Part shown: positions 11,019-44,626 of the stretch, piece by piece
Layout of the letters: each line of letters opens with the position of its first letter
How positions within the stretch are numbered: position 1 is the first letter of the stretch
Source: Amanita rubescens
Taxonomy: Eukaryota; Basidiomycota; Agaricomycetes; Agaricales; Amanitaceae
NCBI GenBank assembly: GCA_015039365.1
Contig: WION01000039.1
Coordinates: 62,001-126,000, forward strand
Reading direction: 5' to 3'
DNA length: 64,000 nt
Program-made: the position numbers and the translations under genes
The notes under the pieces: generated by a model
The model's input: the letters and a program-made list of their open reading frames with translations, nothing else
Databases searched by the model: none
What the model was told of the DNA's origin: nothing

Positions 11019-11570
11019 GAAAGAAAACTGGATTCCGAAACTAGTACTCCGTTACCAGTTTACGAAGCCGAAGGAGAATCATTTCCTCCTGCCCGGAGAT
11101 TACCTCCTTCTTACGACGCCCCAATACCACCGTTTCCCTTAACCTTAGGGAACCAGACTTTTATTGATACACCGGCACCAATCCCATCTTCGTCCCGTTT
11201 TAGGACGATAGTTCGTGTTGTCAATTCTGACACCAGATTCGGTGTCACAACTCGTGGACCTGTCACAGTTCACGATCGAAGAGATCACTTCCTAGCCGCG
11301 CGACTTAGAAACGGTCGCACCTTGCAAGACGAAATAATACATCGTCGTCGACAAGCAGCTATCGAAGAAGGTGTTCCACCCACCTTAGATCTTTGGATTC
11401 CACCCAGGGGCACTTCAGTAGCCCAACACATAGCAAATAGGCGTACACGCCGTAATCTCGAAAGAGATAACCAAGAGGTCGAAAACCTCGAAAATCAAAG
11501 AAACTTCCATTTCTTTTGGCGTCTTCTAACCGCCTATATTATAATCATCACCTCCGCCTTCCTCGTCTAA
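11019..11570 (+). CDS. Small leader ORF of the Copia element with C-terminal hydrophobic tail
   Basis: An open frame of about 183 codons ends at TAA 11568-11570, one base before the gag ATG. It has no in-frame ATG, but it is preceded by a good splice acceptor (TCTCTTTTAG ending 11018). One phase-compatible upstream exon would be 10126-10200, whose ATG lies inside the primer-binding site, with donor GTATAG at 10201. The predicted protein has a proline-rich first third, an arginine-rich middle (RRTRRNLERD) and a C-terminal membrane-anchor-like segment (LLTAYIIIITSAFLV). I recognise no family. It may be an accessory protein from a spliced RNA, or a fortuitous frame. Confidence 0.45.
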   Translation, partial: ERKLDSETSTPLPVYEAEGESFPPARRLPPSYDAPIPPFPLTLGNQTFIDTPAPIPSSSRFRTIVRVVNSDTRFGVTTRGPVTVHDRRDHFLAARLRNGRTLQDEIIHRRRQAAIEEGVPPTLDLWIPPRGTSVAQHIANRRTRRNLERDNQEVENLENQRNFHFFWRLLTAYIIIITSAFLV

Positions 11571-11571
11571 C

Positions 11572-14500
11572 ATGTCTAACGACTTGACGATTCCTAGTTC
11601 CATTCCCGTTTTGAATGGAACTAACTATAAAGAATGGGAACGCATGATGCGTTTCCTATTACAAACAAAGGGACTATTTCAGTACCTTAAAGATGACTAT
11701 GTTCATCCTCCGCGGATTACTCCGCTACAACAATTCTTCATAGACACAGGTGTTCGTGCAGCCATAACTGCACAACCTGCTGTAGCAGCAGTTGCTGCAC
11801 ATGGTTCACATCCAGCAACACCTGCAATCCCAGCCGTTGAGGGTGAACCGTCTATCACCCAACAAATGGTTGATGATGCAAAGGCCGTCAAAAAGGCTTT
11901 TGAAGATTGGGTCGTCGAGGATGATCGCATCCTCGGATCCATAAATATGAAATGTTCTGCTACTATACAGCAGATCAATTCAGAAGTAAATGCCGCTAGA
12001 GTTTTATGGCGGAATTTAGCAAATCAATACGGTGTGACAACGTCTGCCGGAATATATAATGACTTCCAATTAGCCGTTACTTGGAAGTTCCAAGACAAAA
12101 AGGATCCCACACAATCCTTAAACGACCTCCTTGCCATAATAAACCGCTTATCATCTAGCGGAATTGTATTGCCTGAAAATGTACAGGCAATGATTGTACT
12201 TTCAGCCGTCCCCCGTCATTGGGACAATTTTGCCGCTGTGGTTCTAGCCACAACAGAACCATCGGATCTTACGATCCAAGGGATACTTCCCTTAATTCAG
12301 AATGAGTGGCGCCGAAGGCACCCTGAATCTGCCGCGACGGCAAATTCGTCGCAACAACAGCAGCAACCATGGCAACAAGTACGTGGTCGAGGACGAGGAC
12401 GTGCTCGCAGACGTGGCCGCGGAGCAGGTCGTGGACGTGGGGGGAGACCTTATTCTAGGCCTCCACAAGGCGCTCAGACACCGGCTCCTACTGCTCCTCC
12501 GGCAAATCAAAATTGGCCGGGTAAAGTTGAGGGCCAAACACGTGGTCCTAACTGGGAGAGGAACCGAGAACGCCGAAAGGCAGATGCAGCCGAGAAGAAG
12601 GCTGCCAAAGCCGCAGAACATACTATGGGTTCTGCACATACCGTTGCCCGTATTGGGCCTTATGACATCACCGAGCCAGTTGCCGGCTCTAGCAAAGGCA
12701 AACAAAGAGAAAAGGATGAACTGGACTTTGAGTCCTATAAATCGAACCGAGGAATGGGGATATCGTCAGACGATATCGACTATAAAAATATGGATATAGA
12801 TCAGGAAGCTGAACTATATTATGACGATTATTACTATGAAGATAACGGCGAACAATGGTATGAAACCATTAAGAAGCTGGAAATGGCTAACTTTCTCTTT
12901 ATAGAGGCAGCAATGAAAATGGTGTTCCCTAAATTGGGGCATCATCGTCGTACTATAAATTCCTTCTTTGAACAATCTGTACTATATGATAGTATAAATT
13001 ATAAAGAAAATTTAGACGAAAACTGCCTCGTAAGAGATAAGTCGTGTGACACTGTCATTTATAATGCAAATATGATTGAACGATCATATAATATTGGTAA
13101 CATGTTTAAAAAACCTTTTACATGTTTAGCGGTCAATAAAAGAAAATTTAAGGATAAAGTACATCCAACATGTCCCTGTCCGGAATGTGTTGAGAAGCGT
13201 ACTGGAGATACACTATGGATGTGTGACTCCGGTGCATCTGACCACTTTACCTTTAGTAGGAAAGACTTCTCTGAATATAGAGAATTTCCTGCAAACGAAA
13301 ATCACAGTGTCAAAACCGCTAATGGTATAGACCGTCTTGAGGGACTTGGCACAGTTATTCTTGAACACAAGTTGTCCACAGGGGAAACAACACTCGTAAA
13401 GCTCTTCCCTGTTCTATATATGCCACGGGCAACTGCACGCTTGATTTCAAACGGCAGATTGATCCGACAAGGATTAACTTGTAAACAAGATGAAAAGATG
13501 GTAGTCTTTTCCTTTACAGACTCGGGTAGAACGTGTATTGAAGGACATTATCTTATGCCCGATGATACATTAGTTTACGCTCGAGGTAGGATTATTATAA
13601 TGAATCCTACACTGGTTTCCGGTCCAGGCTTAGCCAACAGGAATTCTAAATTAATTCTTGGAAGACCGACAAAGAAACCAGATGCAGAGTCTATAGAAAA
13701 ACTATTAGACTACGAGACCTGGCATAAACGGTTTGGTCATCCATCTAACGAAGTCTTCTCCAAGATACCGTTAAATGTCAATGGATGGAAAGAAGTTACA
13801 CTTCCAGAAGGAAAATTACGTTGTGAAGGTTGTCTAAAAGGCAAAATGAAGGCAAAACCTTATAAACTGTCTTCGAAGAGAGCTACTCGTCCCTTCGAGT
13901 TACTCCATATGGATCTTATGACCGTACCGGCCATATCTTACCACAAATACAAATATATTGGTGTTATCGTAGACGATTTCACCTCGTATACGTGGATTGG
14001 TTTGTTAAAAACCAAAGATCAAACTCTAGAATATTTTACCGGATGGTATAATGAGTTTGTAGATCCTAAACAACCTATTTCTCACCTCCGTTCTGATCGA
14101 GGGGGGGAATTTGTAAATAAAGCCTTTGAAGAATTCCTTAAATCCAAAGGAATTAAACATCAACAGACAGCTCCTTACACCCCACAACAAAATGGTCGCG
14201 TTGAACGCATGAATCAGACTTTGTCAGACAAAGCTGAGGCTATGCGATTAGACGCAGGATGTCCGAAATCTTGGTGGGAGTTCTCATTCAGAACGGCTGT
14301 GCATGTGTACAACCGCACTCCCCTAAAAAGGACTAAATGGAAGACCCCTCTGGAAAATCTTCTTAACAAAAAACCAGACGTATCATACTTCCGAGTATTT
14401 GGATGTGAAGCCTGGGTATTTATCCCTGATCAACGGAGACCGGATAAGCTGTCCGAGAAATCCGTTTTATGCACTTTTGTAGGATATGAATCAGGAACCA

Positions 14501-17418
14501 AAGGCTATAGGTTCATGACGTCGACAAACACACTGGTCATATCCTCCCAGGCAACATTCTTTGAAAACAGGTTTCCGCGCAAAGGAAAGACTGCAGATAT
14601 AATTACTGAAGATCTTGGTCCGATCTGGGAGGCGATTCCTCAAAAGGAACCTAACCGCCCTCCACAAAATTTGGATTTAGATAACTTACTCCCAGAGAAC
14701 CGTAGACGTTCTCCGAGCAGAAGACGCTCACCCGGTTTGGATCGAAGGGGTGCATCTCCTGATAGACAGCAATCAGACCCTTCTGATGATTCAAACGATG
14801 ATGATGACGGTGATGAATTTGCCGATCGTCGAAGAGATTTTTTGGATGATAATATCCAAAGGCAAAGGGAAGAAAGAGAACAAGAAAGACGTGACAATTA
14901 TCGTAGACAACGCGATGATTGGAAAAAGGGTCAAGGAATTGATAAACAATCTCGTTTACGAGATCAATTCAAACGTCAAATGAGTGATATGTTTAAGAAA
15001 CGTAAAACTCCTGAACCCTTTAGACGTACTCCCTCTCCACAGATTAAAGAGGAGACTCCTGTTCCTTCTAGGCCTATAACACCGATACCATATGTATCTA
15101 GGCCACCTTCACCTCGTAGTCCTATGGATGAAGATAATCCCTTCTCTTTGAATCAAAGAGATCGAGATGAAATAGAAAACCCATTTATGACGGATCGAGA
15201 ATTTGATCAATTTGAACAACGTCAAAGAGATCGTTTTAGAGAATTTGCTCAGAGACCTAGACCTCCTCCACCGATCATATCTGATCCTGGTCCACCCTCT
15301 GTACAAATAGGTCCTCGCCGTTCTGGCCGTTTTCCAATTCCAAGGGTACAAAGAGACAACGCGTATGGAGATAAAACTCCTGCACAGATAGAAGCGGAAA
15401 TTCAGCAAAAGCGAGATGCTTTACGAGAGCAGTTAAAAGATAAAACTCCGAGTTCTTCGACTCAGGATCCACCGTCAGCAGACAGGAACCCTGATAGAAT
15501 GAATGAATCTGCTTCTCTACTCAAAGAAATCTTTGCTTTAAAGTCTGAATTAAAATCTGCGGAACATGATCATTTAACCCGAATGATTAATGAATCTGGA
15601 AATGAATTCCTTCATTTTCTTCTAAAAGCGGCTGTCCCCCTTGTGGATAATATTCCATATGACTATAGAGATATATCTAAAATGCGCTCCAGTAATCCTC
15701 AATTGTATAAACAATGGAAGATTGCAATGGATGACGAATTTAAATCTCTTCAATCTAGAGATATTTGGGAGTTAGTTGATCTTCCAAAAGGACGAAACCT
15801 AATCAGATGTCGTTGGGTTTTCGACTTAAAAACCGATGGACGCAAAAAAGCTCGCGTCGTAGCTAAAGGTTTTAGTCAACGTCCCGGATTAGATTACGAC
15901 GAAACATTCTCGCCTGTAGCGAGATATGAAACAATCCGAATACTTCTGGCCACATCAGTGCTTGAAAATTGGGATATACAAGCCCTAGATGTAAAAACTG
16001 CCTTCTTATATGGCGATCTTGATGAAGATATTTACATGGCCCAGCCAGAAGGTTTCGTTGTAAAAGGACAAGAATCTAAAGTATATAGGCTGAGGAAAGC
16101 CATATATGGATTGAAACAGGCATCATATGCCTGGAATAAACAAGCTGATAAATCGTTGAAATCGTTGCATTTCGAGCGATGCTTGTCTGATTCTGGCGTT
16201 TACGTTCGTAAAGGCAAGAATACTATCACGATATGCATACTGTATGTCGACGATATACTCTTTATGGGAAATGATGATTCCACCATCGCATCCATTAAAA
16301 AGAAATTTATGGAGATGTGGGAATGTCGTGATCTTGGAAAGATCAAAGAGTATTTACGAATCCAAGTCAATTACAACCGTGATTTAGGATTCTTAGTTAT
16401 AGATCAAGGTCCTTATGCCTTGAAGGTTGTCAAGCGATTTGGACTTGAAGATTGCAAGTCTGTACGCACACCGTTACCTGCTGGGTATGCTCCTATAAAG
16501 AATGAAGGAGAATGCACACCACAGGAACGTTCTTATTATCAACAGATAATAGGATCCCTTCTATATCTTGCCTTAGGAACTAGGCCTGATATAATTTATG
16601 CAGTAATTTTGATGTCCCAATTTTCATCAAACCCGTCCCAAGAACACATTCAAAAAGCTTTGTATATAGTCAAATACATTGCTCATACCTTAAACGTCAA
16701 AATCGTTTATAGCGCCAAAGGCAATAATAAATTTAGAGCCTACGCTGACGCTGACTGGGCCGCTGATCGTAATACACGACGATCTATAAACGGTTATGTC
16801 TTAATGTTAGCTGGTGGTGCGGTAGCTTGGACGAGTAGAAAACAAAAGACTGTAGCTCTGTCTTCGACTGAAGCAGAATACATATCTTTGTCAGATGCTG
16901 CAAGACAAATTGCATGGGTTGAAAATCTATTTTACGAAATAGGTGCACCCATTAAAAGCATCTTACTTAGCGTAGATAACCAAGGCGCTATATTTTGGGC
17001 ACAAAATCCTGCACAAGAACATCGTTCCAAACACATTGATATTCGCTATCATTTCGTTCGCGAGTTGATCGAGACTAAAAAGGTAGTCCTCGAATATATA
17101 CCAACAAACGAGCAGAATGCGGATCTCATGACTAAGAATTTATCCTTTGAAAAGGTCAAATTCTTTAGAGAACGATTGGGACTTTCCTTAGAAGAATACC
17201 CGACTTCTACAAATACATTAATCAAAAGACCTGATCGATTAGAGACTGAGGAAATTCGTGATTTGACGAAATTAATTCTTGATTGGCAAAATCTTGAATT
17301 AGATGGAATTGACCGTCTATCACACAAGAAGTTGATGGAACTTCTTGATGGTCTTATTGATCAACAGGAATCGGATATAGATCCCTTCTATGATGAAAAC
17401 ATCATAGACTTTAAATAA
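11572..17418 (+). CDS. Copia gag-pol polyprotein
   Basis: 1948 codons from ATG 11572, with no frameshift. In order: a gag domain of the UBN2/DUF4219 type (NGTNYKEWERMM near residue 15) and an RG-rich segment near 270-300 instead of a CCHC knuckle. Then protease (DSGASDHF), the GAG-pre/HHCC zinc region (HKRFGHPS...CEGCLKGK) and the integrase core (D at HMDLM, D at SDRGGEF, E at NGRVERMNQ). A 300-residue charged Arg/Pro/Asp linker follows, then reverse transcriptase (FSPVARYETIR, LYVDDILFMG) and RNase H (ADADWAAD, STEAEYISL). The order protease-integrase-RT-RNase H defines Pseudoviridae-type elements. All catalytic residues I can check are present. Confidence 0.96.
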   Translation: MSNDLTIPSSIPVLNGTNYKEWERMMRFLLQTKGLFQYLKDDYVHPPRITPLQQFFIDTGVRAAITAQPAVAAVAAHGSHPATPAIPAVEGEPSITQQMVDDAKAVKKAFEDWVVEDDRILGSINMKCSATIQQINSEVNAARVLWRNLANQYGVTTSAGIYNDFQLAVTWKFQDKKDPTQSLNDLLAIINRLSSSGIVLPENVQAMIVLSAVPRHWDNFAAVVLATTEPSDLTIQGILPLIQNEWRRRHPESAATANSSQQQQQPWQQVRGRGRGRARRRGRGAGRGRGGRPYSRPPQGAQTPAPTAPPANQNWPGKVEGQTRGPNWERNRERRKADAAEKKAAKAAEHTMGSAHTVARIGPYDITEPVAGSSKGKQREKDELDFESYKSNRGMGISSDDIDYKNMDIDQEAELYYDDYYYEDNGEQWYETIKKLEMANFLFIEAAMKMVFPKLGHHRRTINSFFEQSVLYDSINYKENLDENCLVRDKSCDTVIYNANMIERSYNIGNMFKKPFTCLAVNKRKFKDKVHPTCPCPECVEKRTGDTLWMCDSGASDHFTFSRKDFSEYREFPANENHSVKTANGIDRLEGLGTVILEHKLSTGETTLVKLFPVLYMPRATARLISNGRLIRQGLTCKQDEKMVVFSFTDSGRTCIEGHYLMPDDTLVYARGRIIIMNPTLVSGPGLANRNSKLILGRPTKKPDAESIEKLLDYETWHKRFGHPSNEVFSKIPLNVNGWKEVTLPEGKLRCEGCLKGKMKAKPYKLSSKRATRPFELLHMDLMTVPAISYHKYKYIGVIVDDFTSYTWIGLLKTKDQTLEYFTGWYNEFVDPKQPISHLRSDRGGEFVNKAFEEFLKSKGIKHQQTAPYTPQQNGRVERMNQTLSDKAEAMRLDAGCPKSWWEFSFRTAVHVYNRTPLKRTKWKTPLENLLNKKPDVSYFRVFGCEAWVFIPDQRRPDKLSEKSVLCTFVGYESGTKGYRFMTSTNTLVISSQATFFENRFPRKGKTADIITEDLGPIWEAIPQKEPNRPPQNLDLDNLLPENRRRSPSRRRSPGLDRRGASPDRQQSDPSDDSNDDDDGDEFADRRRDFLDDNIQRQREEREQERRDNYRRQRDDWKKGQGIDKQSRLRDQFKRQMSDMFKKRKTPEPFRRTPSPQIKEETPVPSRPITPIPYVSRPPSPRSPMDEDNPFSLNQRDRDEIENPFMTDREFDQFEQRQRDRFREFAQRPRPPPPIISDPGPPSVQIGPRRSGRFPIPRVQRDNAYGDKTPAQIEAEIQQKRDALREQLKDKTPSSSTQDPPSADRNPDRMNESASLLKEIFALKSELKSAEHDHLTRMINESGNEFLHFLLKAAVPLVDNIPYDYRDISKMRSSNPQLYKQWKIAMDDEFKSLQSRDIWELVDLPKGRNLIRCRWVFDLKTDGRKKARVVAKGFSQRPGLDYDETFSPVARYETIRILLATSVLENWDIQALDVKTAFLYGDLDEDIYMAQPEGFVVKGQESKVYRLRKAIYGLKQASYAWNKQADKSLKSLHFERCLSDSGVYVRKGKNTITICILYVDDILFMGNDDSTIASIKKKFMEMWECRDLGKIKEYLRIQVNYNRDLGFLVIDQGPYALKVVKRFGLEDCKSVRTPLPAGYAPIKNEGECTPQERSYYQQIIGSLLYLALGTRPDIIYAVILMSQFSSNPSQEHIQKALYIVKYIAHTLNVKIVYSAKGNNKFRAYADADWAADRNTRRSINGYVLMLAGGAVAWTSRKQKTVALSSTEAEYISLSDAARQIAWVENLFYEIGAPIKSILLSVDNQGAIFWAQNPAQEHRSKHIDIRYHFVRELIETKKVVLEYIPTNEQNADLMTKNLSFEKVKFFRERLGLSLEEYPTSTNTLIKRPDRLETEEIRDLTKLILDWQNLELDGIDRLSHKKLMELLDGLIDQQESDIDPFYDENIIDFK

Positions 17419-18460: not shown

Positions 18461-21400
18461 CTATGTATAAATAAATCTGAGCTCAATGCAAAGGCTATAC
18501 AGCCAATAGATCACCTGAATATCATGCTGGGTGTTTCAGATAAGTGATTCACAAGTAGTCCATGACTAGACAAAGTACCTACCATCAATGTGAGTCACCT
18601 GCCAGTAGAGTAATGTGATCAAATCTTGATGATCAGAGTGCATAAAGTCAGGAGTAACATCAGTCTTCAGCTTCTGAACATAGCCTTTTTGCTTGAATTG
18701 ATCAAAGGCTTCTGTGACTGATTGCAAAAATGGTTTATTGATCCAAAAGGATAGCTTGGCAATGATAATAATTGCTTGAAACTTTAAGCAAACATACAGT
18801 AAATGAAAAGGAACAGTTTACCAGCTAAGGCCTGACAATCACTTGGCTTATTGTAACACCATCAGTTGTGTACTACCCAAAGGAAAGAACAAAATACCTT
18901 GACATGAAAGTTGCTTTGGATGTCTCCAAACATGGAGAAAAGTTCATACTGGTTTATGAGATAGAGTAAAACAACATATCATCAGACCTACACACTATCA
19001 TGCAAACTGATATGAACATCAATGCCTCATGAACAAGCATCACTCACCTGGAAATTGAGGAAAGTGATATAAGTGAAAGAAGTGATCACATGAGGTGGGA
19101 CTGGGTCAGCTGAAATGAAATCTTACAATCTATGATAATGGTGTATAAGGAAGATATGGAAAAGATATGGCAACATGCTTACTTTCTGGTATACATAAGA
19201 CAATCATGAATTGAAGTATACTGAGAGTCCAGGTCAGACAATTTGCAATGTCACTCACTTGCTGTTGGTGAAAGGAAAAAGATGTAATGAGATTGCTTTT
19301 CACAAAATGTGCAATGTCACCCACTCGCTTTTGATGATGTAATGAGACTGACTTTCACAAAATGTGCAATGTCACTCACATTCTGTTAGTGATAGGAAAA
19401 TACTATGTGAGACTGGGGCTTTCACAAAATGTGCAATGTTGCTCACAATCTGTTGGTGATAGGGATGTGATGAGACTGCCTTTAAAAAATGTGAATTGTC
19501 ACTCACAAGCTGTTGGCCATAGGAAAAGATGTGATGAGACTGCCATTCACAAAATGTTCAATGTCACTCACTGGCTGTTGGTCATAGAAAAAGATGTGAT
19601 GAGACTACAGTTCACAAAATGTGCAACTTGAATGTCACTCACCAGCTGTTGGTAACAGGAAAAGAGGTGATGAACTGCCATTGACAAAATGTGGAATGAC
19701 ACTCACTCGCTGTTGGTGATAGGAAAAGATGTGATGAGACTGCTTTTCACAAAATGTGCATCACTTACTTGCTGTTGGTGATGGGAAAAGATGTGATGAG
19801 ACTGCCTTTCATGGAATGTGGAATGTCACTTACTCGCTGTTGGTAATAGGAAAAGATGTGATGAAAGTTTGAAACCAGTGCCTTTCACAAAATGTTCAAT
19901 GTCACTCACTTGCTATTGGTCATAGAAAGGATGTGATGAGACTGCCTTTCACAAAATATGTAATGTTGCACACTTCCTGTTGGCCATAGGGAAAGATGTG
20001 ATGAGATTGCCTTTCATGGGTGTGCAATGTCACTCACAAACTGTTGGTAATGGGAAAAGATGTGACAAGACTGCCTTTCACAAAATGTGGATTGTCACTT
20101 ACAACCTGTTGGTCATAGGAAGAGAAGTGATGAGACTGTCTTTCACAAAATGTGCAATGTCACTCACTTTCTGTTGATCATAAGAAAGTTGTGATGAGAC
20201 AGCCTTTCACAAAATGTGTGGTGTCACACACATCCTGTTGGTCATATGAGACAGCCTTTCACAAAATGTGCAATGTCACTCACATCCTGATAATGATAAG
20301 AAAAGATGTGATGAGACTGCCTTTGCAAAATGTGGATTATCACTCACTTTCTGTTTGTGACAGGAAAAGATGTGATGAGACTGCCTTTGACAAAATGTGC
20401 AATGTCACTCACTCGCTGTTGGAAATAGGAAAAGATGTGATGATACTGCATTTCACAAAGTGTCCAATGTCACTCACTTCCTGTTGGTAACAGGGAAAGA
20501 TGTGACAAGACTGCATTTCACAAAATGTGCAATGTCACTCACATACTGTTGGTGATAGGAAAAGATGTGATGAGATTGTGGTTCACAAAATGTACAATGT
20601 CACTGACAAACTGTTGGTCATAGGAAGAGATATGATAAGACTGCCTGTCACAAAATGTGTAATGCCACCTACATCCTGTTGTAACAGCAAAAGATGTGAT
20701 GAGACTGCCTTCCACAAAAATCTTCAAGCTCACATCCTGTTAGTGATAAGGGAAATACATAGAACAGTTGCTCAGAAATATTTGCAATGTTACTCACATA
20801 CTGTTGGCCATAGGCAAAAATTTGACAAGGTCATCTTCTTAATCATTAAACTAGCATGACATGCTGCCAACCTGCTATATTATAGGAAAACATGAGATTT
20901 ACACTGCTTTTCACAATACTTGCAACACCACTCACAATCTGTAGAACAACAAATGTGTACAACTTGTCCTGTAGCAGAGTGGCTAGCATCACTCACTTCC
21001 TTTGGAAAGGAATTAGCATCATGAGTTGGGACAAAGAAAACAATGTGACTGACTCTCTTTTGTCATAGTATTTCATATGATGAATCATATCTCACAAAAG
21101 GATCACATACATCCTGTTTGTTTTGCCATAGTTTGTGACTTTGTCAAGACTCAGCTTTGGAAAGAAGAAATATTTACTGTCTGTTGTTTTGAGACAAGAT
21201 GTAATGATTATAAGCAGACAGAAAGGAAAAGTCACTTACTTCCTGTTATTAATGCAAAGAACTTTGTTGAGACTGTCTTTCAGATAATAGTATGTCACCA
21301 ACTTTCTGTTGTTCATTGAGTTATGTTTGATAAGCTGCACAAACATCAATGTTGCTTACTTTCTTTAAGCAGGTCAAGTGTGGTGTGAAGCAGTGTTATA

Positions 21401-23349
21401 TTACTCACTCCCTGTCCATGAGAAGCTGGATTGACAAGTTTGCTTGCAATAATAGATTAACTCACTTGCTATTGGTCATATGATGCACAATGAGATCATT
21501 TACAAAAAATCAAAATTGAGTCATGTCACTCACTTCCTGTAAATTATGGGACAAGTAGGGACAAGATTCCTGATCACAAAAGGAAGCATTTCTCACAAAC
21601 TGTTGTCATGAAATGACATGTGGGATCTATGCTAGTTCAATGTCACTTACCCACTGATATTAATGTCTTCCAAGTCAGATCCTGCCAGCAAGAAGGTGAC
21701 AACTCACCTGTGTTTCACTCAGTTGTTCATTGGCCATCTGAAACATGATTAACCTTGTTCTCATGTGAGGGCATTTGAGTGTTACTTACCTTGATGATCT
21801 GTTACAAGTATTTATCATTCCATATAAGGCCGCCTACCTCCCTGTCCACCTATTGCCATTTAACCTTTCCAATGCTAATGTGCAGTTTGAAGAAAATGCA
21901 TACCCAGAGATGTGGAAATTTTGAAAAAACTATGAGAATGACATCATCCCATGTCCAATGTTTATGTTTCAGAACATGTCTGAACAATGTTGATGTTAGT
22001 AAGTGAGATGCTGAATGTGACCCTCACTGAAGTGCAGATTTAACACAAAGGTCAAGATTATTCATTTGTGTTGAAACAAACAGCTGATGTATGCTGCCAT
22101 CATCTATTGCATCAGCAGTTTGCTGAGTTAATTCAGCACAATTCTTCTCTGGTAAATCCATGTCTATGAAACAACATTATACCAATTTTTCATGAAGAAA
22201 TAAATCCTCATCACTCTCACCTTCTAATCGCACATATGCCTTGGGAGGATATTTGGTATCCAAAACTTTAGGAAGATAAACTTTCTGAAAAGTGATTTCA
22301 GCAATTTCACTGGCTCTCTCCCACTTATCTTCATCCTTTGCGTCAGGCAAGTTGACAAATTCACTGGCTATTTGACCATCAAATTTAGTGAATATAACCA
22401 CCAAAGCAACTGTAAAGGAAATATTTACTAGTCAGTACAAGTAGATTTTGTGGCAAGTTGGCCAATGGAAAGGAGGTAACAGTAGTTAAGGGTAAACAAT
22501 CTCTCCAAAACCAACAAGTTACAAGATGAGATATGAATTCATTAGGACTCACCTCTGCCTGTCCCTTTATTGAAGAATTCAAGTTCTGCAGGTAGAATGG
22601 GACGAGGGCTGTCCATGGGTATACAGTACCTACAGGATGCCAGGTCAGACAGTACTGTAAAGAGATAAAGCAAGATACCAAATTGCATGCAACTGATTCT
22701 TCAACTCAGTTTCTGCAGACTTCTTTTCAATGAACTTCCAGGCAATCTCCAATTCCTCAGTTGAGCCAGATTCAAAACCCTGTGAGTCATGGAAGACAAA
22801 GTTACTTCCAGGGTATGTAATTTGATGCCAAATATCATGCAGGCCTCTCTGTTATCATTGCATGTGAATGGGTACATCCCTGCACCATTATCCAACTCAC
22901 CCCAAGTGATGGCATCAAATGAATCACAGACTGTTCAAGCTGATTCCCTGCAAGAAACTCACAGTCAAAGGAAGCACAAAACTCAGAGTGATTTACCATC
23001 TTTATCACATATAATAGGCTTTGTCCCCTTTGCTATCCCACAAACCTTCTCAAGGATGGTTGTCTTGCCTGCATTAGCCCTCCCAATGACAAGGATGCGA
23101 AAGTGTGGGCATAGATAGTGTTCCCTGAGGATTTGAACATGTGTCTCATCAGGATCTGATAAGTGTCAGTCAAGGATTAGGAATCCTGAAACACATACTC
23201 AAAGAAGGTGCAGCAGTTGTAGCTGCCATGACCGATGTTGTGCTAGGAGCATGAGTTTGTGTGTGAGCTGCCTTACTTGCCAAATCCTGCTTAAATTTCT
23301 GGGCTAACTTTCCCAGCATTGAGCCAATAACATTTTTTTTCCCAGACAT
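18461..23349 (-). CDS. AIG1/GIMAP-like GTPase with about 40 single-codon exons
   Basis: P-loop GTPase of a family common in agaricomycetes. Ordinary exons (minus): 23349-23199, 23155-22997, 22947-22901, 22848-22679, 22629-22553, 22409-22221, 22163-22028, 21979-21904 (335 codons). The G1 motif is GRANAGKT, G3 is FHDSQGF and G4 is FTKFDG. Then come a 9-nt exon (21798-21790, IIK) and a 30-nt exon (21737-21708). Next are 40 exons of exactly 3 nt from TGG at 21653-21651 to ATT at 19129-19127. Ordinary exons resume: 18948-18898 (17 codons, YELFSMFGDIQ...), CTG at 18824-18822, 18781-18599 (61 codons, FQAIIIIAKLSFW...) and 18514-18461 ending TAG. From 21904 downwards everything is phase 0. The model gives about 484 residues. 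The role is unknown; neighbours suggest defence. The G domain is confident; use of each micro-exon is inferred from splice consensus. Confidence 0.75.
19127..20800 (-). repeat. Tandem intron-plus-codon array in the GTPase gene
   Basis: About 27 degenerate units of 52-76 bp, mostly near 65 bp. On the minus strand each unit begins with a donor (GTGAGT most often; also GTAAGT, GTGGGT, GTCAGT, GTGTGT, GTAGGT). It contains CACATTTTGTGAAAGGCAG and ends in ATCACCAACAG or similar. Exactly three bases separate each acceptor from the next donor. Examples on plus coordinates: TAT 20798-20800, GAT 20734-20736, TTT 20608-20610, CGA 20413-20415, GTT 20103-20105, GAA 19974-19976, CTG 19643-19645, AAT 19380-19382. 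The array continues upward to 21653 with introns unrelated in sequence but the same three-base spacing. Confidence 0.9.
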
Positions 23350-25108: not shown

Positions 25109-25694
25109 CTACTGAAGGTCGACTGTATTCAACAGGAAAACAGCAAAGGTCGAAGATTAAAGACTTTGTAAGTCTCAATAACGAGTCACCGTCGATTCGC
25201 TGGAGTTAACGTGGACACAGATATTTCTTCCCCGGTTTTCCACCAATGACGGTCAAGCGTGAGGTCGCTTGATAAATGTCAGTTCCGTTCTTCGTCAGTC
25301 GTCGACTCATACAGCGACTCATATGAGAGCATAAAAAAGTAAAAATAAAATTCGTGTCTAGTTTTAAAAGGCACATTATAACGATGAGGGGGACGCGCTG
25401 CTAATGCTTGGATCAACATATTTGAGATCTAGGTAATGCGCCGACACGACGCTGTCAGGCCTCAGGTTGAAACGCGAGAGATGCAATAATAGATCGTCAT
25501 ACGAGACACGCGCCCATTCCAAAAAAGGCAACAGTTCATCACGCGCATTCACCGCAAGCGACACGCATGAGATCGCGATGATCTCAACCGCTCTCCGCAA
25601 CTTTAAAGAACCCACAAAGGATGAACTTACCCACATTTACTTCTCTATACCTCCATCAACAATCGCGGATTCTACTTCCAATGATATCGACAAG

Positions 25695-28600
25695 ATGGAC
25701 ATCAACGCGGTCTTGACCCTGGGAGACGCAGAGGAAGAATCATACGTGAGTTATCAGCGCTTCAACGGCTTTTGCTCACCGTACGATTCGAATAGGCGGG
25801 GAAGCTTTACCTCATGCCGCCCTACCTCTCGTTTGCGTCGTTGGATCGCAAATCCGTCCGGTTCACAATACCCCTCGCAACCGTTCGTCGCGTTGAACGG
25901 TTGAACGCCAGAGCAGGCATATATGCGCTCAGCGTATCAACCTGGCACGGTCCACGACTCGTACGTAGCCCATCCGTTACGAAACTAAATTGTAACTTGA
26001 ACCGAACTTTCAAGGTCGTTCAACTGACGTCTTTACGCCCAACCGCGGACGCGTTTTGCACCATATTTCGGGATGCGCTGAAAATCGAGCTGCAAAAGGG
26101 TCAGATGAAGGCCGTCAAGACGTTTGTCAAGACGTGTTATTCAGAGGCTCTTATATCCACCTCGTCCAACGTTGCTGATAATGAACGAGAAGATGGTAGT
26201 CTAATTAGCGAAGAGACAGATGGTGCACCTGCTAGAGAGCATCTATACCACGGTGGACTGGGTCTTCGCTTCAAGTTTCCTGGTGATCCTAAAAAGTCTG
26301 TAGACTATCTCAACAGGAGATATTCTTTTCTCTAACCTCGAACTAGACTGAGGGAAGCATCAAAGATCAAGCTATGGACTACATATTTGAGAAGTACAGT
26401 CTCGTTTATCATTAAATTCTGCTATTTCACGAGTTTTTTTTAATTTTCTTAGCTCATGGCCGGAACCTGGCTTTGTTGCGTTATCCTCAATGTACAAGGC
26501 TAGTTCAAGTCGGACTTCCAAACAGACTACGTGGAGAAATATGGGAAACGCTTTCTGGATCCATTTTCCTTCGTTTCACGAACCCTGGCTACTACGAACG
26601 GTTACTAGAGGAACACAAGGGCAAAACTAGTACAAGCACAGAAGATATCGAGAAGGATTTACACAGAAGTCTACCCGAATATGCCGGCTACCAATCTGAG
26701 GAAGGCATAGGCGCGCTCCGCCGGGTGCTACAAGCGTATTCGTTCAAGAACCCGGAACTTGGGTATTGTCAGGTCGGTTCCTCCCCTTTTTGCGAAACCA
26801 TGAACTAACTTGATATATAGGCGATGAACATACTTGCAGCAGCGATCCTAATGTAGGGCCTTCCCACTTTGTCCCCCTTGATTCGTTTATCAAACGCGAT
26901 TGGCAGTTATATGTCGGAAGAGCAGGCATTTTGGCTTTTGGAAGTGCTATGCGATAGATTACTACCAGGATACTACTCGTACGTTGCCTTCTCTCCATTT
27001 TCTTCATTACTAATGATATATGCTCTACAGGCCATCGATGCATGGGACGCTCCTCGATCAACGCGTCTTCGAAGCTCTGGTAGCCAGATGTCTTCCTATG
27101 ATCCACACTCATTTCGAAACGGTTGACGTGCAACTATCGGTCGCTTCGCTTCCCTGGTTCCTCAGTTTGTACGTGAAATTTCACTCATTTCGCGATCAGG
27201 AGCTGACAGAGGTCTCAGATATATCAACAGTATGCCTATGGTCTTCGCGTTCCGGATAGTGGACTGTTTCTTCTGTATGGGGCCAAAGGTTTTGTTCCAA
27301 GTAGGGTATGTAAACCTTTTTTATGTTGAATTCTTCGTATTAATGACTTTTTGATAGATTAGGTCTGACTTCCAGCTTCGACGATGATACCGTGACTTAT
27401 GATGGAACATATTATAGCGATTCTCAAGATCAACGGGGAGAAGCTACTACAGGTTCAGGATGACGGCGGTTTCCTCAAGTACGTACTAAAACCCTTTCGA
27501 TGATCATACCACTCACGTTGCCGTTCAGCGTGATGAGGGAATACTTCGCCTCCCTTGACCAATCAGCCCATCCAAGCTCAAGTGACCCCCGTTCGCGCGC
27601 CATCACGCGCTTCCAAGAACTCCTTCTCATATCCTTCCGAGAGTTTTCCGTTATTACAGAGGAAATGATTCTCTCGGAACGGAAACGTTTCCGAAACGAG
27701 ATCATCCACAATATCGAAGCCTTCTCTAAGCGTGCTGCGGTTCGGAACCTCAAGACTCTCGGTAGATTCAGCAAGGAACAAGCGGGGCTCATTTACGATG
27801 CCTTGTATAAGGCGATGTGTATTGAGCCGGCGCCACCTGCGACTGCGCCACCGCCGTCGTTGTTCACGACCAACGATGGTCATGAGGAGAAGCCTGAGAC
27901 GAGGATCGGATTGCGGACGTTCCGCCACTTTTTGAGCGAGATCGCGACGTGGGCTCGAGATGAGAAGATCGTTATGAATGGTTTGACGGTGAGTTCCCGT
28001 TCTGTCATGAAGAATCTTTTCTGACGTTTTGCTTGTTTGATAGCGGCGTGTGGATCGTGAGGTCGCCGAACATGAGTTTATCGATAGGTTGTTCTACTTT
28101 TGGGATACGTCATGTCGGGGTGCGTTGTCGTTCCAGGTAGGCGGAAGTTTTACTCGTTGTGGTTCTTCTTTCTGATTTGTTGCCTGATGATTGCAGGATC
28201 TTGTATCGGGCTTGGATGGTGTCATGTTCAATGACTTGATGGAGAACATTGAATGGTTCCTCAACCTCCATGACAAGAACAAGGACGGGTATCTTACCAA
28301 AGATGAAGTGCTGACATTGTCCGAGTCGCTGCTGGTGCGTGGACGTTTTTCGTTTCCTGTTAATTCATTTATAAACAAGTTTTTCAGTTCATTTTCCGAT
28401 TCGAAGTTGGCGATGCTTACTTGGGCGCCGTTAGCAGATTCATGAGCAACGCATTTGAATATGGTGACACACTTCTTCCGCAAAATGAGGGTAGGTCGGG
28501 CGAGGAAACATCCGTTGAGACAAATCAACCTTACATCAATCTTGCAACGTACGCCGATTATTAATAGTCTCGCTAGAGCTTACGAACGCTGACTTTGTCC

Positions 28601-33987: not shown

Positions 33988-35774
33988 ATGTCTAGCGCCG
34001 GAAACATCAATATCTCCGGCAGCCAGTTCACCGACATTGGGGGTGATCAGATCAATAATTATGACCAGAGCCAGTTCAACTTGAATCAAATTAACATGCC
34101 AGTGCATTATGGGAGCACTCGTGCGCTGTTTGCTTCCTACTCGTAGCTACCGGGTCGTGACCACATAGATACAGGGACTGTCTTTGATATCTTGAAGGAC
34201 TCGAATCAAATTGCTATTCACGCCGCCTATAATTCTGCAGAACGCGAGTCAGAACATGCATCAACCTGTCAAGAGGGTACTCGCGAAAGGGTTTTGTCGA
34301 AGCTCATGCGGTGGTCCAAAGCTAATGATGGATACCCAGTGTGTTGGCTCGAGGGACCTGCCGGCTCAGGGAAGTCGACAATCTTGCATACCATCGCGGA
34401 GCAATGTGACGATGAGGGGCGGCTCGCATTTAGCTTTTTCTTTTCAAGAGGCAAAGCTGATCGCAGCGATACGGCTAAAGTCATCCCCACATTTGCGTAT
34501 CAGCTTGCTCGATCCCTTCCCGCAATTCAATCACCTTTGCTGCATGTGCTCACAAAGAGTAATCCATTCGCTCCTTATCTCCGCTTGCACGATCAGCTCA
34601 AAAATCTCATCATCGATCCCACTCTTAGCATTCAGCAGACCACCCTGCCCATGGTTGTCATTATTGATGGCCTTGATGAATGTAGTGACGAGAATCTCCT
34701 ACCGCAGCTCATTCATGCACTTGTCGATGTGACCTATTACCTTCCATTCCGATTTCTCTTTGCAAGTCGGCCTGAATCTCATATCCGACAAACATTTCAA
34801 TCCTCTTTGATCAAACCAAAGACATATGTCCTCTCACTCCGAGACTTTCAGGCTCATCATGATGTCGGCAACTACTTGAAACAGCATCTTACAGAAATAC
34901 ACAGGCAAAATTACAACATCATGCAAAAAGTACCACATCCTTGGCCATCAGCAGAACAGCTTGTTGCTCTTGTCCAGAAATCAGAGGGTTTATTCATCTA
35001 TGTGTCAACCCTGGTCAAATTTGTGGGTGATAGGCAAGGGCTTCTTCCCCAGGAGAAGCTTGAGTTAGCTATAACAGCACATCATGGTGTTGATCCTCTA
35101 TATGAGCAGGTTTTATCAAAAGCTCAAGCTGAGTCTGCTCACTTTTCCAGTGTAGTGGGTACCATCATATATCTCCACCACCCTCTTGCCATACATGACC
35201 TGGAGCAACTTCTACAGCTATCATCTGACCATATTCGACAAGCATTACAGGGTTGCCAATCTATTTTTGTCCTTCCCAACACTGAAGAGGAATCAGTTCA
35301 CCCATATCATGCATCATTGAAAGATTTTCTTAGTGATATGAACAGAGCAAAGGTTCATTTTCTTGACCCCAAGATGTACCATGTTACCATTCTGGTCAAC
35401 TGCTTGCAGTTGATTGGGCAGGTGCATGACTCAAACCATGGTGGTCAACCTCTGAAATATGCATGTCAACAATGGTATTATCACTTCTCTTTGGCACTTT
35501 CACATCAGGCAACAATTGATTTGATGAAGAACTGTGGAAACATAGAGGTGTTAATGGTGAAGTTGAGCAGAGAGTGGTTAAAAACTTGGATGTATGGGCT
35601 GGAAGATGGATTAATGACTTTTTGTCAAGGTTGTGATTCTGTTCTTAAACAATTACAGGCAAGTTGTATTTAAACCACTATTGGAATATGTGCTCAAGCT
35701 TATCAATCAAGCCACTTCAAAGAGAGTGGAAAGTTGTTACAGAGAGTATGAATCAAATATTGGAGATTTCTAAG
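33988..35774 (+). CDS. NACHT-domain STAND NTPase, core exons
   Basis: NLR-like NTPase of the fungal NACHT class. ATG 33988 begins a glycine-rich N-terminus (ISGSQFTDIGGDQINN) like that of the two NB-ARC genes. An intron 34102-34146 (GT-AG, 45 nt) removes an otherwise in-frame TAG. Exon 34147-35658 carries CQEGTRERVLSKLMRW, the Walker A GPAGSGKST, the Walker B VVIIDGLDEC and a sensor-like FLFASRPESHI. A helical region follows (LKYACQQWYYHFSLAL). A GC-AG intron (CAG/GCAAGT at 35659) then joins 35712-35774 in phase 0. No WD40 or ankyrin sensor follows; a long series of micro-exons does. Without the second intron the protein ends at TAA near 35673. The NACHT identity is confident; the 3' splicing is inferred. 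Confidence 0.82.
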
Positions 35775-36242
35775 GTGAATAATCCCTTATGAAATATAAT
35801 AGAAGGAAAATGATTTTGTTACTCTGCTTAGAATGTATGTAACTTGATATATCATTGTGGCTCAAGTTGACTATCTTGTGCCTGAATAAATATCAGCTGG
35901 TGTGTATTTTGTCAATCTTTCTATAGCAAAGCAGCATTTCTCAAGCAATTATCTCTAGAATGTAAGCAAGTTGAATTTGTTCATATAATTGTCAAAATCT
36001 ATTAATAATTGCTGTTCTAGAATGTAATATTTGTGCAAAATCAAAAACCAAATATATTGCTAACTGATATTTTGTATTTCATTACTGTATCATTAGAAAG
36101 TAAGTTGGTTTGTTTTACATGTTTGATAACTAGTAGATGGTGGTATTGATCACAAAATGTCTTAGTTGGTAAGTGGTACTTTCAAACATGAACATAATAT
36201 TCTGATTATCACTTTGTGGCAACAATCTGTGTACAGCAACTT

Positions 36243-38732
36243 GTAAGTGATTCAGGTTGACATGTGCAGAACCTCTTGGTGATGATTTTGTGGCATCTGG
36301 CTGTGTTCAGTATGTAAGTGATTCAGGTTGACATGTGCAGAACCTCTTGGTGATGATTTTGTGGCATCTGGCTGTGTTCAGTATGTAAGTGATTCAAGTT
36401 GACATGTGCAGAACCTCTTGGTGATGATTTTGTGGCATCTGGCTGTGTTCAGGATGTAAGTGATTCAGGTTGACATGTGCAGAACCTCTTGGTGATGATT
36501 TTGTGGCATCTGGCTGTGTTCAGGATGTAAGTGATTCAGGTTGACATGTGCAGAACCTCTTGGTGATGATTTTGTGGCATCTGGCTGTGTTCAGGATGTA
36601 AGTGATTCAGGTTGACATGTGCAGAACCTCTTGGTGATGATTTTGTGGCATCTGGCTGTGTTCAGGATGTAAGTGATTCAGGTTGACATGTGCAGAACCT
36701 CTTGGTGATGATTTTGTGGCATCTGGCTGTGTTCAGGATGTAAGTGATTCAGGTTGACATGTGCAGAACCTCTTGGTGATGATTTTTTGGCATCTGGCTG
36801 TGTTCAGGATGTAAGTGATTCAGGTTGACATGTGCAGAACCTCTTGGTGATGATTTTGTGGCATCTGGCTGTGTTCAGGATGTAAGTGATTCAGGTTGAC
36901 ATGTGCAGAACCTCTTGGTGATGATTTTGTGGCATCTGGCTGTGTTCAGTATGTAAGTGATTCAGGTTGACATGTGCAGAACCTCTTGGTGATGATTTTG
37001 TGGCATCTGGCTGTGTTCAGTATGTAAGTGATTCAGGTTGACATGTGCAGAACCTCTTGGTGATGATTTTGTGGCATCTGGCTGTGTTCAGTATGTAAGT
37101 GATTCAGGTTGACATGTGCAGAACCTCTTGGTGATGATTTTGTGGCATCTGGCTGTGTTCAGTTTGTAAGTGATTCAGGTTGACATGTGCAGAACCTCTT
37201 GGTGATGATTTTGTGGCATCTGGCTGTGTTCAGTATGTAAGTGATTCAGGTTGACATGTGCAGAACCTCTTGGTGATGATTTTGTGGCATCTGGCTGTGT
37301 TCAGGGTGTAAGTGATTCAGGTTGACATGTGCAGAACCTCTTGGTGATGATTTTGTGGCATCTGGCTGTGTTCAGAGAGTAAGTGATTCAGGTTGACATG
37401 TGCAGAACCTCTTGGTGATGATTTTGTGGCATCTGGCTGTGTTCAGAGAGTAAGTGATTCAGGTTGACATGTGCAGAACCTCTTGGTGATGATTTTGTGG
37501 CATCTGGCTGTGTTCAGAGAGTAAGTGATTCAGGTTGACATGTGCAGAACCTCTTGGTGATGATTTTGTGGCATCTGGCTGTGTTCAGTTTGTAAGTGAT
37601 TCAGGTTGACATGTGCAGAACCTCTTGGTGATGATTTTGTGGCATCTGGCTGTGTTCAGTTTGTAAGTGATTCAGGTTGACATGTGCAGAACCTCTTGGT
37701 GATGATTTTGTGGCATCTGGCTGTGTTCAGAGAGTAAGTGATTCAGGTTGACATGTGCAGAACCTCTTGGTGATGATTTTGTGGCATCTGGCTGTGTTCA
37801 GAGAGTAAGTGATTCAGGTTGACATGTGCAGAACCTCTTGGTGATGATTTTGTGGCATCTGGCTGTGTTCAGTAATGTAAGTGATTCAGGTTGACATGTG
37901 CAGAACCTCTTGGTGATGATTTTGTGGCATCTGGCTGTGTTCAGAGATGTAAGTGATTCAGGTTGACATGTGCAGAACCTCTTGGTGATGATTTTGTGGC
38001 ATCTGGCTGTGTTCAGATATGTAAGTGATTCAGGTTGACATGTGCAGAACCTCTTGGTGATGATTTTGTGGCATCTGGCTGTGTTCAGTATGTAAGTGAT
38101 TCAGGTTGACATGTGCAGAACCTCTTGGTGATGATTTTGTGGCATCTGGCTGTGTTCAGTATGTAAGTGATTCAGGTTGACATGTGCAGAACCTCTTGGT
38201 GATGATTTTTTGGCATCTGGCTGTGTTCAGGATGTAAGTGATTCAGGTTGACATGTGCAGAACCTCTTGGTGATGATTTTGTGGCATCTGGCTGTGTTCA
38301 GACAGTAAGTCAATTAGCTTGACATTGTGCAGAACCTCTTGGTGATGATTTTGTGGCATCTGGCTGTGTTCAGACAGTAAGTCAATTAGCTTGACATTGT
38401 GCAGAACCTCTTGGTGATGATTTTGTGGCATCTGGCTGTGTTCAGACAGTAAGTCAATTAGCTTGACATTGTGCAGAACCTCTTGGTGATGATTTTGTGG
38501 CATCTGGCTGTGTTCAGACAGTAAGTCAATTAGCTTGACATTGTGCAGAACCTCTTGGTGATGATTTTGTGGCATCTGGCTGTGTTCAGACAGTAAGTCA
38601 ATTAGCTTGACATTGTGCAGAACCTCTTGGTGATGATTTTGTGGCATCTGGCTGTGTTCAGACAGTAAGTCATTCAGCTTGATATGTGCAGAATCTCTTC
38701 AAAAGTGATAATTTTGTGACCCTTTGCTGGTA
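36243..38732 (+). repeat. 71/72-bp tandem array: 68-nt intron plus 3-nt exon
   Basis: Thirty-four exon positions start at 36311 and step by 71 bp to 37873, then 72, 72, 72, 71, 71, 71 and 72 bp. Each unit starts GTAAGTGATTCAGGTTGACA and ends GGCTGTGTTCAG. The final six units use a 69-nt intron variant (GTAAGTCAATTAGCTTGACA). By eye the 68-nt part is almost invariant: one change near 36393, and two units with an extra T in GATTTTTTGG. Exons: TAT 8, GAT 8, TTT 3, GGT 1, AGA 5, ACA 6, and three four-base exons (TAAT 37873, AGAT 37945, ATAT 38017). Confidence 0.95.
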
Positions 38733-39320
38733 CTTAGTTTGTAAGTTGTTTTCTTAGACTCAAAAAAAAAAAAATTTAATCATACATATTTGTATTTAGA
38801 ATGTATGTCACTTTTTATTTGTTGGGACATTTGCTAATGTCCCTCTTGCTCATAAATCAGAATGTATGTACTTTTGTTCATTCCTTTACACCTGTGCTTC
38901 GGCACTCAAAATTTGTAGTGGGCATGTTACTTTTTTACATTTACATTCAAATTATGCTAACATTGTTTATTAATGTTATCAGAAGGTTAGTGGATTTTTT
39001 AACTAATTTAAATTCAAATCTTTACTCTTTCTCTTGTCAGGAGGTATATGTAATACATCTTTTCTATCTCTGATTTGTATGCTGACTCTACTATTGTCTA
39101 CTAAACTTAGTTGGTATGTTTCTTTACTCTTTTATGCTTAATAACTGAATTAATGTTATTTTTTGACTTCATTTTCAGATTGTATGGTTCTTCATCTGCA
39201 GTGCAGTGCAGAACTTTCTCATCTTTTTTCCTTTAGGATGTCAGTTTGTTACTCCTCATTTCAATTTTTATCAATGCAAATTTTAAATTGGGAATTTGCT
39301 AGCATGTATGTATCCTCTTT

Positions 39321-44310: not shown

Positions 44311-44626
44311 TATTTGCCACTGGCTCTTGAAACTAGCTCAGAAAAGCCTCTTCTGTGTTTGGCATACCAGGTAATGAGAACGAGAATGACGGCTGAATGC
44401 CACCCGAGGCTGACACCAAAGGTTCCTGCGCTTGCTCGAGTCCTTGCTGAAGATGATGAATGTCATGAGCCGAGGACGTCACGTCGTAAATGCCATTGTC
44501 AGAGAAGGATACGTGGCGGGTATCAGGAGCTGGAGGTATGGTCGGACCGGTTCACGCGCTGGCGCATGACAGGTGTGGCCGTGGACGGCTCGTTTCTGGC
44601 TCGACTTGCTCGAATCGCTAGTGCTT

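Follow-up and report, generated by a model that had tools for sequence, protein, structure and literature searches.

The window, a 64,000-nucleotide stretch of Amanita rubescens DNA, contains two runs of minute exons: 41 one-codon units in a GTPase gene on the minus strand, and 51 units, 47 of them one codon long, after a NACHT domain on the plus strand (Table 1). Both runs are probably spliced unit by unit, and would then specify the variable segment with which immune-receptor-like proteins sense nonself. For the GTPase gene, single-codon exons had been proposed in an initial annotation, and the triplets are very likely to be real exons of this kind, because stop codons are nearly absent from such arrays, a spacing of four nucleotides is rare, the codons at the array head are conserved amid diverging introns, and codons recur in order in the intron-less proteins of relatives. 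The array segment follows the G (or NACHT) domain and precedes C-terminal helices. From this domain company, together with the variability described below, we infer a receptor role in which the segment may act as a rewritable region of nonself recognition.

Table 1. Features of the two arrays and their host genes, in window coordinates.
Feature	Position	Strand	Basis or detail
N-terminal part, GTPase gene	21654..23349	-	ATG at 23349, 11 ordinary exons; hand gene model, consensus splice sites
Array, 41 single-codon exons, WFEQGKKETDREI-Q-YDDFYERKDDKVFEQRQRLPLINRQKI	19127..21653	-	splice chain and motif scan
CAG exon between ATT and TAT, donor GTTGGC	20872..20874	-	read by eye; missed by motif scan and chains
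65-bp units (intron plus codon), part of array	19336..20719	-	Tandem Repeats Finder, 76-80% matches
Candidate zero-length exon, AG|GTGAGT junction 3' of last array codon	19047..19048	-	sequence
C-terminal exons, GTPase gene	18599..18948	-	sequence and comparison by eye
NACHT / NPHP3_N domain exon, open frame	34147..35658	+	ends in phase 0 with CAG|GCAAGT
Second array, 51 exons: 47 of 3 nt, 3 of 4 nt, 1 of 6 nt	35743..39305	+	chain, generic splice weights
Young core of second array, 71-bp units	36242..38699	+	98% matches; introns near-identical, codons differ
Consecutive 4-nt exons TAAT (37873-37876), AGAT (37945-37948), ATAT (38017-38020)	37873..38020	+	chain and sequence

The N-terminal part of the GTPase gene, as modelled by hand, keeps 352 codons open and runs up to the array in phase 0, with ..NEQLSETQ as its last residues. 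The spliced protein carries a P-loop (GRANAGKTT) and TKFD, matching the GxxxxGK[ST] and [NT]KxD motifs of G-domain GTPases, and, used whole as the query, it finds 1058 homologous proteins at E <= 0.001. The Pfam cut-off for MMR_HSR1 (21.9) is passed by the homologue P0054 (25.2 bits), whereas P0018 (16.1), P0012 (19.3) and P0028 (18.3) fall below it, which counts against our reading. Immunity-related GTPases (IIGP1/Irga6, Irgb10, GM4951) are among the solved folds nearest to the predicted AlphaFold structure of P0018 in a Foldseek search (many of 35 rows at E <= 0.001). These matches are weak, however, with a best E of 5.7e-6, TM of ~0.3-0.4 and identities of 9-13%, and this too speaks against the reading. 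We know of no single-codon array in immunity-related GTPases. Beyond the array, the first C-terminal exon (18948-18898) encodes YELFSMFGDIQSNFHVK and the second (18781-18599) FQAIIIIAKLSFWI...; by eye, both resemble the C-terminus of P0012, P0017 and P0018. The candidate zero-length junction recurs in paralogues, with AG|GTRAGT in 9 of 13 loci examined and AG|GTAC in one further. Among the 120 matches listed, the coverage of the spliced query by NCBI Amanita models reaches 72% at most; present gene models thus miss the array.

A splice chain that left exon length free (0-30 nt, with splice-site weights trained on spacing-3 sites) placed 40 triplets in the GTPase run, TGG first and ATT last, exactly where 40 acceptor-triplet-donor sites had been annotated; one merged exon (GGA) was split by rule, and the CAG exon brings the number to 41. 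Spacing 3 accounts for 38 occurrences of the motif, against three in total for all other spacings from 0 to 12; in 200 dinucleotide shuffles of the interval, spacing 3 averaged 1.2 occurrences and never exceeded 5. Every one of the 41 triplets is a sense codon, as had been noted of the 40, and the reported composition of five D, E, K and R each is borne out, as are the five Q if CAG is counted. Threonine, said to be missing, is encoded by ACA at 21180-21178. Nor are the introns unrelated throughout, as had been stated: about half of the run is the 65-bp tandem repeat, which accounts for 55% of its length and 21 of the 41 exons. No transcripts of the window's GTPase and NACHT genes, and no RNA of the strain, were found, so the splicing of the GTPase gene itself is a prediction.

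A probable allele on C557 keeps the GTPase array with one unit fewer and with one CGA changed to TGA. Between the two, exons no longer than 6 nt show one difference in 124 bases, and the chained introns 15 in 3402. The sole exon-base difference is the stop, which counts against the reading. Compared with this probable allele, the window's own GTPase array is not diversifying fast, and targeted hypermutation of its triplets is not seen.

The plus-strand run was absent from the initial annotation. The open frame before it (34147-35673) matches the Pfam families NPHP3_N (E 3.4e-26) and NACHT (E 6.9e-13), and a Pfam scan of that exon found no ANK family. The generic splice weights used for this array merge some exons with intron tails at other loci. 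In the young core, 26 of 33 introns equal the consensus, and they enclose 30 triplets of six kinds together with the three 4-nt exons. The first of these, TAAT, gives a stop in the window's NACHT copy when read in phase 0.

Arrays of this kind extend well beyond the window. Across the A. rubescens genome, 4296 CAG-NNN-GTRAGT pairs stand 40-60 nt apart, compared with none for the reversed-pattern control, while a spacing of 4 gives 17 (control 2). When exon length was left free (0-30 nt, weights from spacing-3 sites), 696 of 793 chained exons measured 3 nt, in a set taken without the window's plus strand, which gave no chain, and L019, which had too few sites; the chain at L020 alone has 83 exons of 3 nt. 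Scaling the strict count by these chains (4296 x 696/281) extrapolates to ~10,600 single-codon exons in the assembly, both haplotypes included. Array introns are mostly 50-70 nt long. Stops are nearly absent. The first triplet of the strict pairs is TAA or TGA in four cases and TAG in none, but one of GAA, GGA, AAA, AGA, CAA and CGA, six sense codons that differ from TAA or TGA in the first base alone, in 2007. Pooled distinct triplets include 1 stop in 621, against 37.5 expected from base frequencies, and the joined codons contain 1/696, 8/680 and 107/680 stops in the three frames. Could the overlapping donor CA|GTRAGT account for the missing TAA and TGA? This explanation is weakened, since TAT yields a donor-like CA|GTATGT just as TAA yields CA|GTAAGT, yet TAT or TGT stands first in 204 strict pairs, and TAG is absent too; overlap alone cannot explain the missing stops.

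Furthermore, codons predicted from arrays can be read in proteins. Among intron-less JGI proteins on contigs of about 1.5 kb, which we infer to be transcripts of close relatives because the contigs are short and without introns, P0018 (478 aa, on a 1486-nt contig) follows the codon order of the L011 array in 41 of 49 aligned residues. The score of 227 compares with a maximum of 74 in 2000 order shuffles and with 30 and 21 in the other frames, and the splicing of L011 had been predicted before P0018 was seen. With another chain and merged exons split by a fixed rule, 40 of 48 residues were identical (217 vs 80). The same rule applied to P0014 and L045 gave 33 of 53 aligned residues identical, with gaps, and a score of 140 (shuffle maximum 65). 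P0012 and P0017 agree at 274 of 287 positions before the array, at 39 of 82 within it and at 87 of 92 after it. In the structure model of one relative, the first two thirds of the array segment have very low confidence, as in disordered segments, and residues 318-478 of P0018, used by themselves as a query, matched only P0018.

Comparison between loci separates the codons from their introns. At the head of the GTPase array, introns differ by 12-19% between the window and its paralogues: codon and intron bases differ, respectively, at 0/30 and 103/546 for L013, at 0/27 and 66/536 for L031, and at 2/27 and 69/533 for L025, a count that leaves out five comparisons with L015 (1-codon misregister; codon differences 7-10 of 27-30). 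Between L025 and L031, in contrast, codons differ more (2/27) than introns (2/536), which counts against the reading. The core introns of six NACHT loci all follow a single 68-nt consensus, with 99.5% identity (8160 bases compared, 43 mismatches), while codons differ by 0.49-0.62 per base between loci; the core exons were picked by the similarity of their introns to that one consensus, a selection that weighs against the reading. In the young arrays of L032 and L033, 22 of 25 exons differ and introns differ at 3 of 1523 columns, whereas L033, L034 and L035 share one identical codon string, again to its disadvantage. L022 has 52 identical introns of 60 nt, followed by 17 kinds of exon, mostly of 3 nt and some of 2 and 4. 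Such frame-breaking exons of 2 or 4 nt occur in several young arrays (8 of 69 chained exons in L022, 8 of 53 in L021) and, with the phase-0 stop of the window's NACHT array, suggest that some copies are broken.

How might such arrays be made and kept? In the scheme we favour, the splicing machinery would treat each 50-70-nt intron as a unit (intron definition) and, on excising it, leave three nucleotides each time. Arrays would lengthen and shorten by whole intron-plus-codon units, and codon identity would be diversified between introns that stay alike, with the result that the array segment is where paralogues and alleles mainly differ; selection would then purge stops and frame breaks. A more specific proposal, which we hold tentatively and with some doubt, is that copies of a single intron accumulate head to tail and stay near-identical, both inside a locus and from one locus to the next, while the codon at each joint is written anew. 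NACHT and GTPase loci and alleles would thereby receive different recognition peptides rich in Tyr/Gly/Arg/Ser/Asp or in Gln/Leu/Arg, a generator that can be likened to an antibody CDR3 built of one-codon exons.

It is very improbable that the runs are instead intronic minisatellites, intron-like tandem repeats that are removed as one large intron, with a 3-nt spacing that was merely copied and no coding role. Tandem repeats of 65 and 71 bp do exist, NCBI Amanita models cover no more of the query than stated above, and of six such models four stop at or shortly after FPH(F/Y)W, one stops earlier and P0044 lacks the array segment. We nevertheless reject this explanation: triplets are nearly free of stops, the L011 introns are unrelated and still keep the 3-nt spacing, and the ordered codons of the intron-less P0018 and P0014 contradict it for two related loci. 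A real possibility is combinatorial use, in which single-codon exons are skipped or included so that one gene gives many isoforms, as reported for the NACHT-ANK genes of Tuber melanosporum in the available parts of PMC10197012 and PMC9815663. Nearly every exon is 3 nt long, so a skipped exon keeps the frame, and exons of 2 or 4 nt, as in young arrays, would be tolerated. On the other hand, P0018 holds nearly every codon predicted for L011, no two of 14 JGI proteins were traced to the same locus, and splicing alone leaves the codon differences in the DNA of loci and probable alleles unexplained. Combinatorial use is compatible with unit-by-unit splicing rather than opposed to it.

Concerted evolution with diversifying selection, known for hnwd WD-repeat genes as far as the accessible parts of PMC4986451 and PMC9815663 go, is likewise possible, if not what we would expect: unequal exchange would keep the introns alike and selection would keep many codons. 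The unit lost between the probable alleles and the codon strings that appear by eye to be block-duplicated in L025 fit such exchange. The codon-to-intron difference ratios, however, are 448, 166, 112 and 26 in the four arrays with at least 30 comparable pairs (a fifth, outside the set, has one comparable pair and zero codon difference), and they are hard to reach under concerted evolution, because a conversion tract would take the codon along with the adjoining intron. Alternatively, an excised intron, as RNA or cDNA, may have been copied into a head-to-tail series, each joint gaining about three untemplated bases; the expected outcome is identical introns with exact ends and random exons of 3 +/- 1 nt. 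Unit ends that coincide with intron ends, the L022 array and the presence of the same intron with different codons at separate loci suit this idea. We think it rather unlikely, since each array has codon runs and a palette of its own (mostly CTA/CAA/CGA in L025), which random addition would not produce, and since we know of no enzyme or intermediate for it.

Runs of codon-sized exons had been thought undescribed. Their kind is already known: the nank (NACHT-ANK) genes of the truffle Tuber melanosporum hold dozens of alternatively spliced 3-bp exons (Iotti et al., 2012, as cited in the parts seen of PMC4986451, PMC3689799, PMC10197012 and PMC9815663), and there too the gene is a nucleotide-binding, immune-type fungal gene, whose mini-exons are credited in these sources with varying its C-terminal recognition domain. 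Here as well, 3-bp exons follow one another by the dozen (41; 47 of 51; 83 in L020), and one Amanita array also follows a NACHT domain. Unlike the ascomycete truffle, A. rubescens is a basidiomycete, and its arrays belong mainly to G-domain GTPases, the gene of the first run having a G domain in place of NACHT; no ankyrin repeat was seen in the scanned NACHT exon, units number thousands genome-wide, and near-identical introns enclose different codons. Alternative splicing is described for the truffle exons; here, splicing can be followed in two protein-locus pairs. What is new is thus the occurrence in a basidiomycete and in a GTPase family, the scale, and the diversification of codons whose flanking introns hardly vary; among the matches listed, in which few subscription papers were covered, no report of such arrays in Amanita or in GTPases was found. 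If the reading is true, thousands of exons have the smallest size that keeps the frame, and spliceosomal exon recognition would work there with three exonic bases alone. Truffle codon-exon receptors would be no curiosity of one ascomycete, the architecture being shared by a basidiomycete and another protein family, and evolution could rewrite the variable stretch of a receptor by single amino acids.

Other systems share parts of this pattern. Podospora hnwd genes and other fungal NLR repeats also have highly similar units with a few hypervariable codons, exchanged and reshuffled (accessible parts of PMC4986451 and PMC9815663); in those genes the invariant portion of each unit is translated into protein, whereas the diversification scheme proposed here would have an intron as the constant part of the repeat, with one codon per unit alone kept and reaching the protein. 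Schistosoma micro-exon genes (MEG) have 10-20 exons of 6-81 bp (mostly 15; 3-81 in the abstract) and introns of 0.1-5 kb, according to the parts seen of PMC10526429. Many tiny exons, mostly multiples of three, and variable proteins are common to both, but the Amanita runs consist of 3-nt exons, and their introns, at ~50-70 nt, are shorter than those of MEGs. Introners, inserted into many genes genome-wide and in some cases flanked by 3-9 bp repeats (available text of PMC9860276), resemble the arrays in that many near-identical intron copies occur in one genome, as at L022 and the six NACHT loci. Here, in contrast, the copies follow one another head to tail, separated by a single codon. Adjacent triplets are often different, which means that the intron copies are not bordered by a constant 3-bp duplication. 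A match at L036, on a phage contig among the viral_contigs, proved to be a G-rich tandem repeat of 35 bp in which CGG takes the place of the triplet, and was judged to be chance.

The GTPase gene of the window is interrupted, between its G-domain exons and the C-terminal exons downstream, by a run of predicted single-codon exons. A splice prediction in silico with free exon length yields the same 40 exons that the initial annotation had counted, and one CAG triplet with an unusual donor raises the number to 41. Within this interval, the acceptor-donor motif has 38 occurrences at spacing 3, and spacings 0-2 and 4-12 together add three more; dinucleotide shuffles (n = 200) give a mean of 1.2 spacing-3 motifs and a maximum of 5. 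The 11 upstream exons reach the array in phase 0. The introns had been described as unrelated among array members, a statement that fails for about half of the run, where they belong to a 65-bp repeat. After the last array codon lies a zero-length AG/GTRAGT junction, found also at eight related loci (9 of the 13 loci examined); this candidate recursive splice site hints at stepwise, recursive removal.

A second array of 51 exons (47 of 3 nt, three of 4 nt and one of 6 nt) follows the NACHT exon. Its core is a 71-bp repeat with 98% matches, yet the codons differ. The three 4-nt exons adjoin one another and their phase-0 reading holds a stop, so that the window's NACHT copy may be broken.

Features of the window that bear on the two arrays, with neighboring elements
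Feature	Position	Strand	Remarks
TPR array	6593-8409	+	126-bp units, high internal identity
Polyprotein frame	11545-17418	+	1957 codons, uninterrupted
Zero-length junction	19048/19047	-	after last array codon
Array of 41 triplets between splice acceptors and donors	21653-19127	-	40 by splice chain (free exon length), 1 added
65-bp repeat	20719-19336	-	76-80% matches
G-domain protein	upstream of array, ATG 23349	-	11 ordinary exons, 352 codons; motifs GRANAGKTT, TKFD
Inverted duplication of a gene piece, 2.8 kb	25503-28296 / 44626-47412	+ / -	95.9% identity
NACHT exon	34147-35658	+	array 3' of it
NB-ARC match	48485-49249		
TPR array	57592-58635	+	126-bp units, high internal identity

Arrays of this kind are already known. 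Such runs had been thought undescribed, but truffle NACHT-ANK genes contain dozens of alternatively spliced codon-sized exons (Iotti et al., 2012, as cited in PMC4986451, PMC3689799, PMC10197012, and PMC9815663). As far as the open-access literature searched shows, the lineage, the gene family, the scale and the invariant-intron pattern are new.

The window belongs to an assembly of 75.7 Mb (786 contigs). Pairs of CAG-NNN-GTRAGT units set 40-60 nt from each other, the strict pattern, number 4296 there, against none for the reversed control; the spacing-4 version is present 17 times (control 2). In 16 arrays chained with exon length free from 0 to 30, 696 of 793 exons are exactly 3 nt, under splice-site weights trained on spacing-3 sites. 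The first triplet of the strict pattern is TAA or TGA four times and TAG never, TAT or TGT 204 times, and one of six sense codons (GAA, GGA, AAA, AGA, CAA, CGA) 2007 times. The 621 distinct triplets include a single stop where position-wise base frequencies predict 37.5, and the three frames of the joined codons hold 1/696, 8/680, and 107/680. These stop counts speak for the triplets being translated in their own frame. At the third position of the 621 triplets, C is almost absent (0.3%) and G makes up 10%, unlike usual AG/GT exon ends; at the second, C is rare (6%).

Are the triplets present in mature products? Searched for homologues, the in-silico spliced GTPase protein gave 1058 matches; of the 120 listed, 22 are JGI proteins, and the NCBI Amanita models never extend over more than 72% of the query. 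Homologues P0029 and P0069 come from Amanita rubescens. Of the 14 JGI proteins inspected, on contigs of 1.1-2.6 kb, six (P0001, P0007, P0012, P0014, P0017, P0018) continue beyond FPH(Y/F/L)W into an array-like W-F segment; the other eight end near this segment, lack it or carry a different one. The L011 array, from elsewhere in the assembly, had been spliced in silico before this search. P0018 follows its codons in order, with identity at 41 of the 49 residues aligned and a score of 227; 2000 order shuffles reach no more than 74, and the two remaining frames score 30 and 21. Another chain with a fixed rule for merged exons gives 40/48 (217 vs 80), and P0014, in a gapped alignment, matches the L045 array at 33/53 residues, scoring 140 where the shuffles reach at most 65. 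Since the L011 array spans ~3 kb, a genomic contig of 1486 nt, the length of that of P0018, could not hold its frame if the source locus has similar introns. We infer that the short JGI contigs are RNA. In P0044, an Amanita rubescens GTPase model, FPHYWV is joined directly to the LFxLFG region, without array segment.

The codons change while the introns stay alike. In L022, 52 identical introns are followed by 17 kinds of exon; pairwise differences per base are 0.0013 in introns and 0.564 in triplets, a ratio of 448 (166 in the window's NACHT array, 112 in L025, 26 in L021). Between the related loci L032 and L033, 22 of 25 exons matched by order differ in the young array, with 3/1523 intron columns, versus 3/21 exons and 40/1392 columns just upstream. 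One identical codon string is common to L033, L034, and L035. Six NACHT loci, including a probable allele of the window's own, have the flanking codons AGA AAT CTG and a single intron sequence in common. In their core, picked by intron similarity, 120 of 135 introns, of 68 nt, show 43 mismatches in 8160 bases, and the 135 exons (125 of 3 nt) give different peptides; both stops sit in one locus (contig C605). P0012 and P0017 are identical at 274/287 residues before the array, 39/82 within it and 87/92 after it. The codons could arise by selection plus exchange of units, or by a copying process that keeps introns fixed and varies the joints.

The conserved head of the GTPase array keeps its codons while introns drift: between the window and L013, L031, and L025, 0/30, 0/27, and 2/27 codon bases differ, and 103/546, 66/536, and 69/533 intron bases. 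L025 versus L031 goes in the opposite direction (2/27 and 2/536); five comparisons with L015, out of register, are left out. Against the probable allele of the window's array region (L030, contig C557), 15/3402 bases differ in chained introns and 1/124 in exons up to 6 nt. This sole exon difference, TGA for CGA opposite window 19709-19707, is a stop, and L030, one unit shorter, is possibly a natural truncation allele on the probable other haplotype.

In the proposed mechanism, short introns would be excised singly, leaving three bases behind each time; with a single codon in nearly every unit, the frame would survive whether units are gained, lost or skipped. The AlphaFold model of P0018 (mean pLDDT 79) falls below 50 at residues 316-358; the array occupies 327-376, and disorder is thus possible over the first two thirds of it, whereas the final third is modeled as a helix running into the C-terminal helices. 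Among solved structures, Foldseek places immunity-related GTPases and bacterial dynamin-like proteins nearest to the model, though the TM-scores are low. Fungal NACHT proteins and hypervariable repeat domains are tied to nonself recognition (PMC4986451, PMC10197012), making a variable recognition segment the likeliest role of the array.

The high identity among the window's TPR units resembles that of variable fungal NLR genes. Between the TPR/NLR genes and the GTPase lies the polyprotein frame, which we take to be copia-type.
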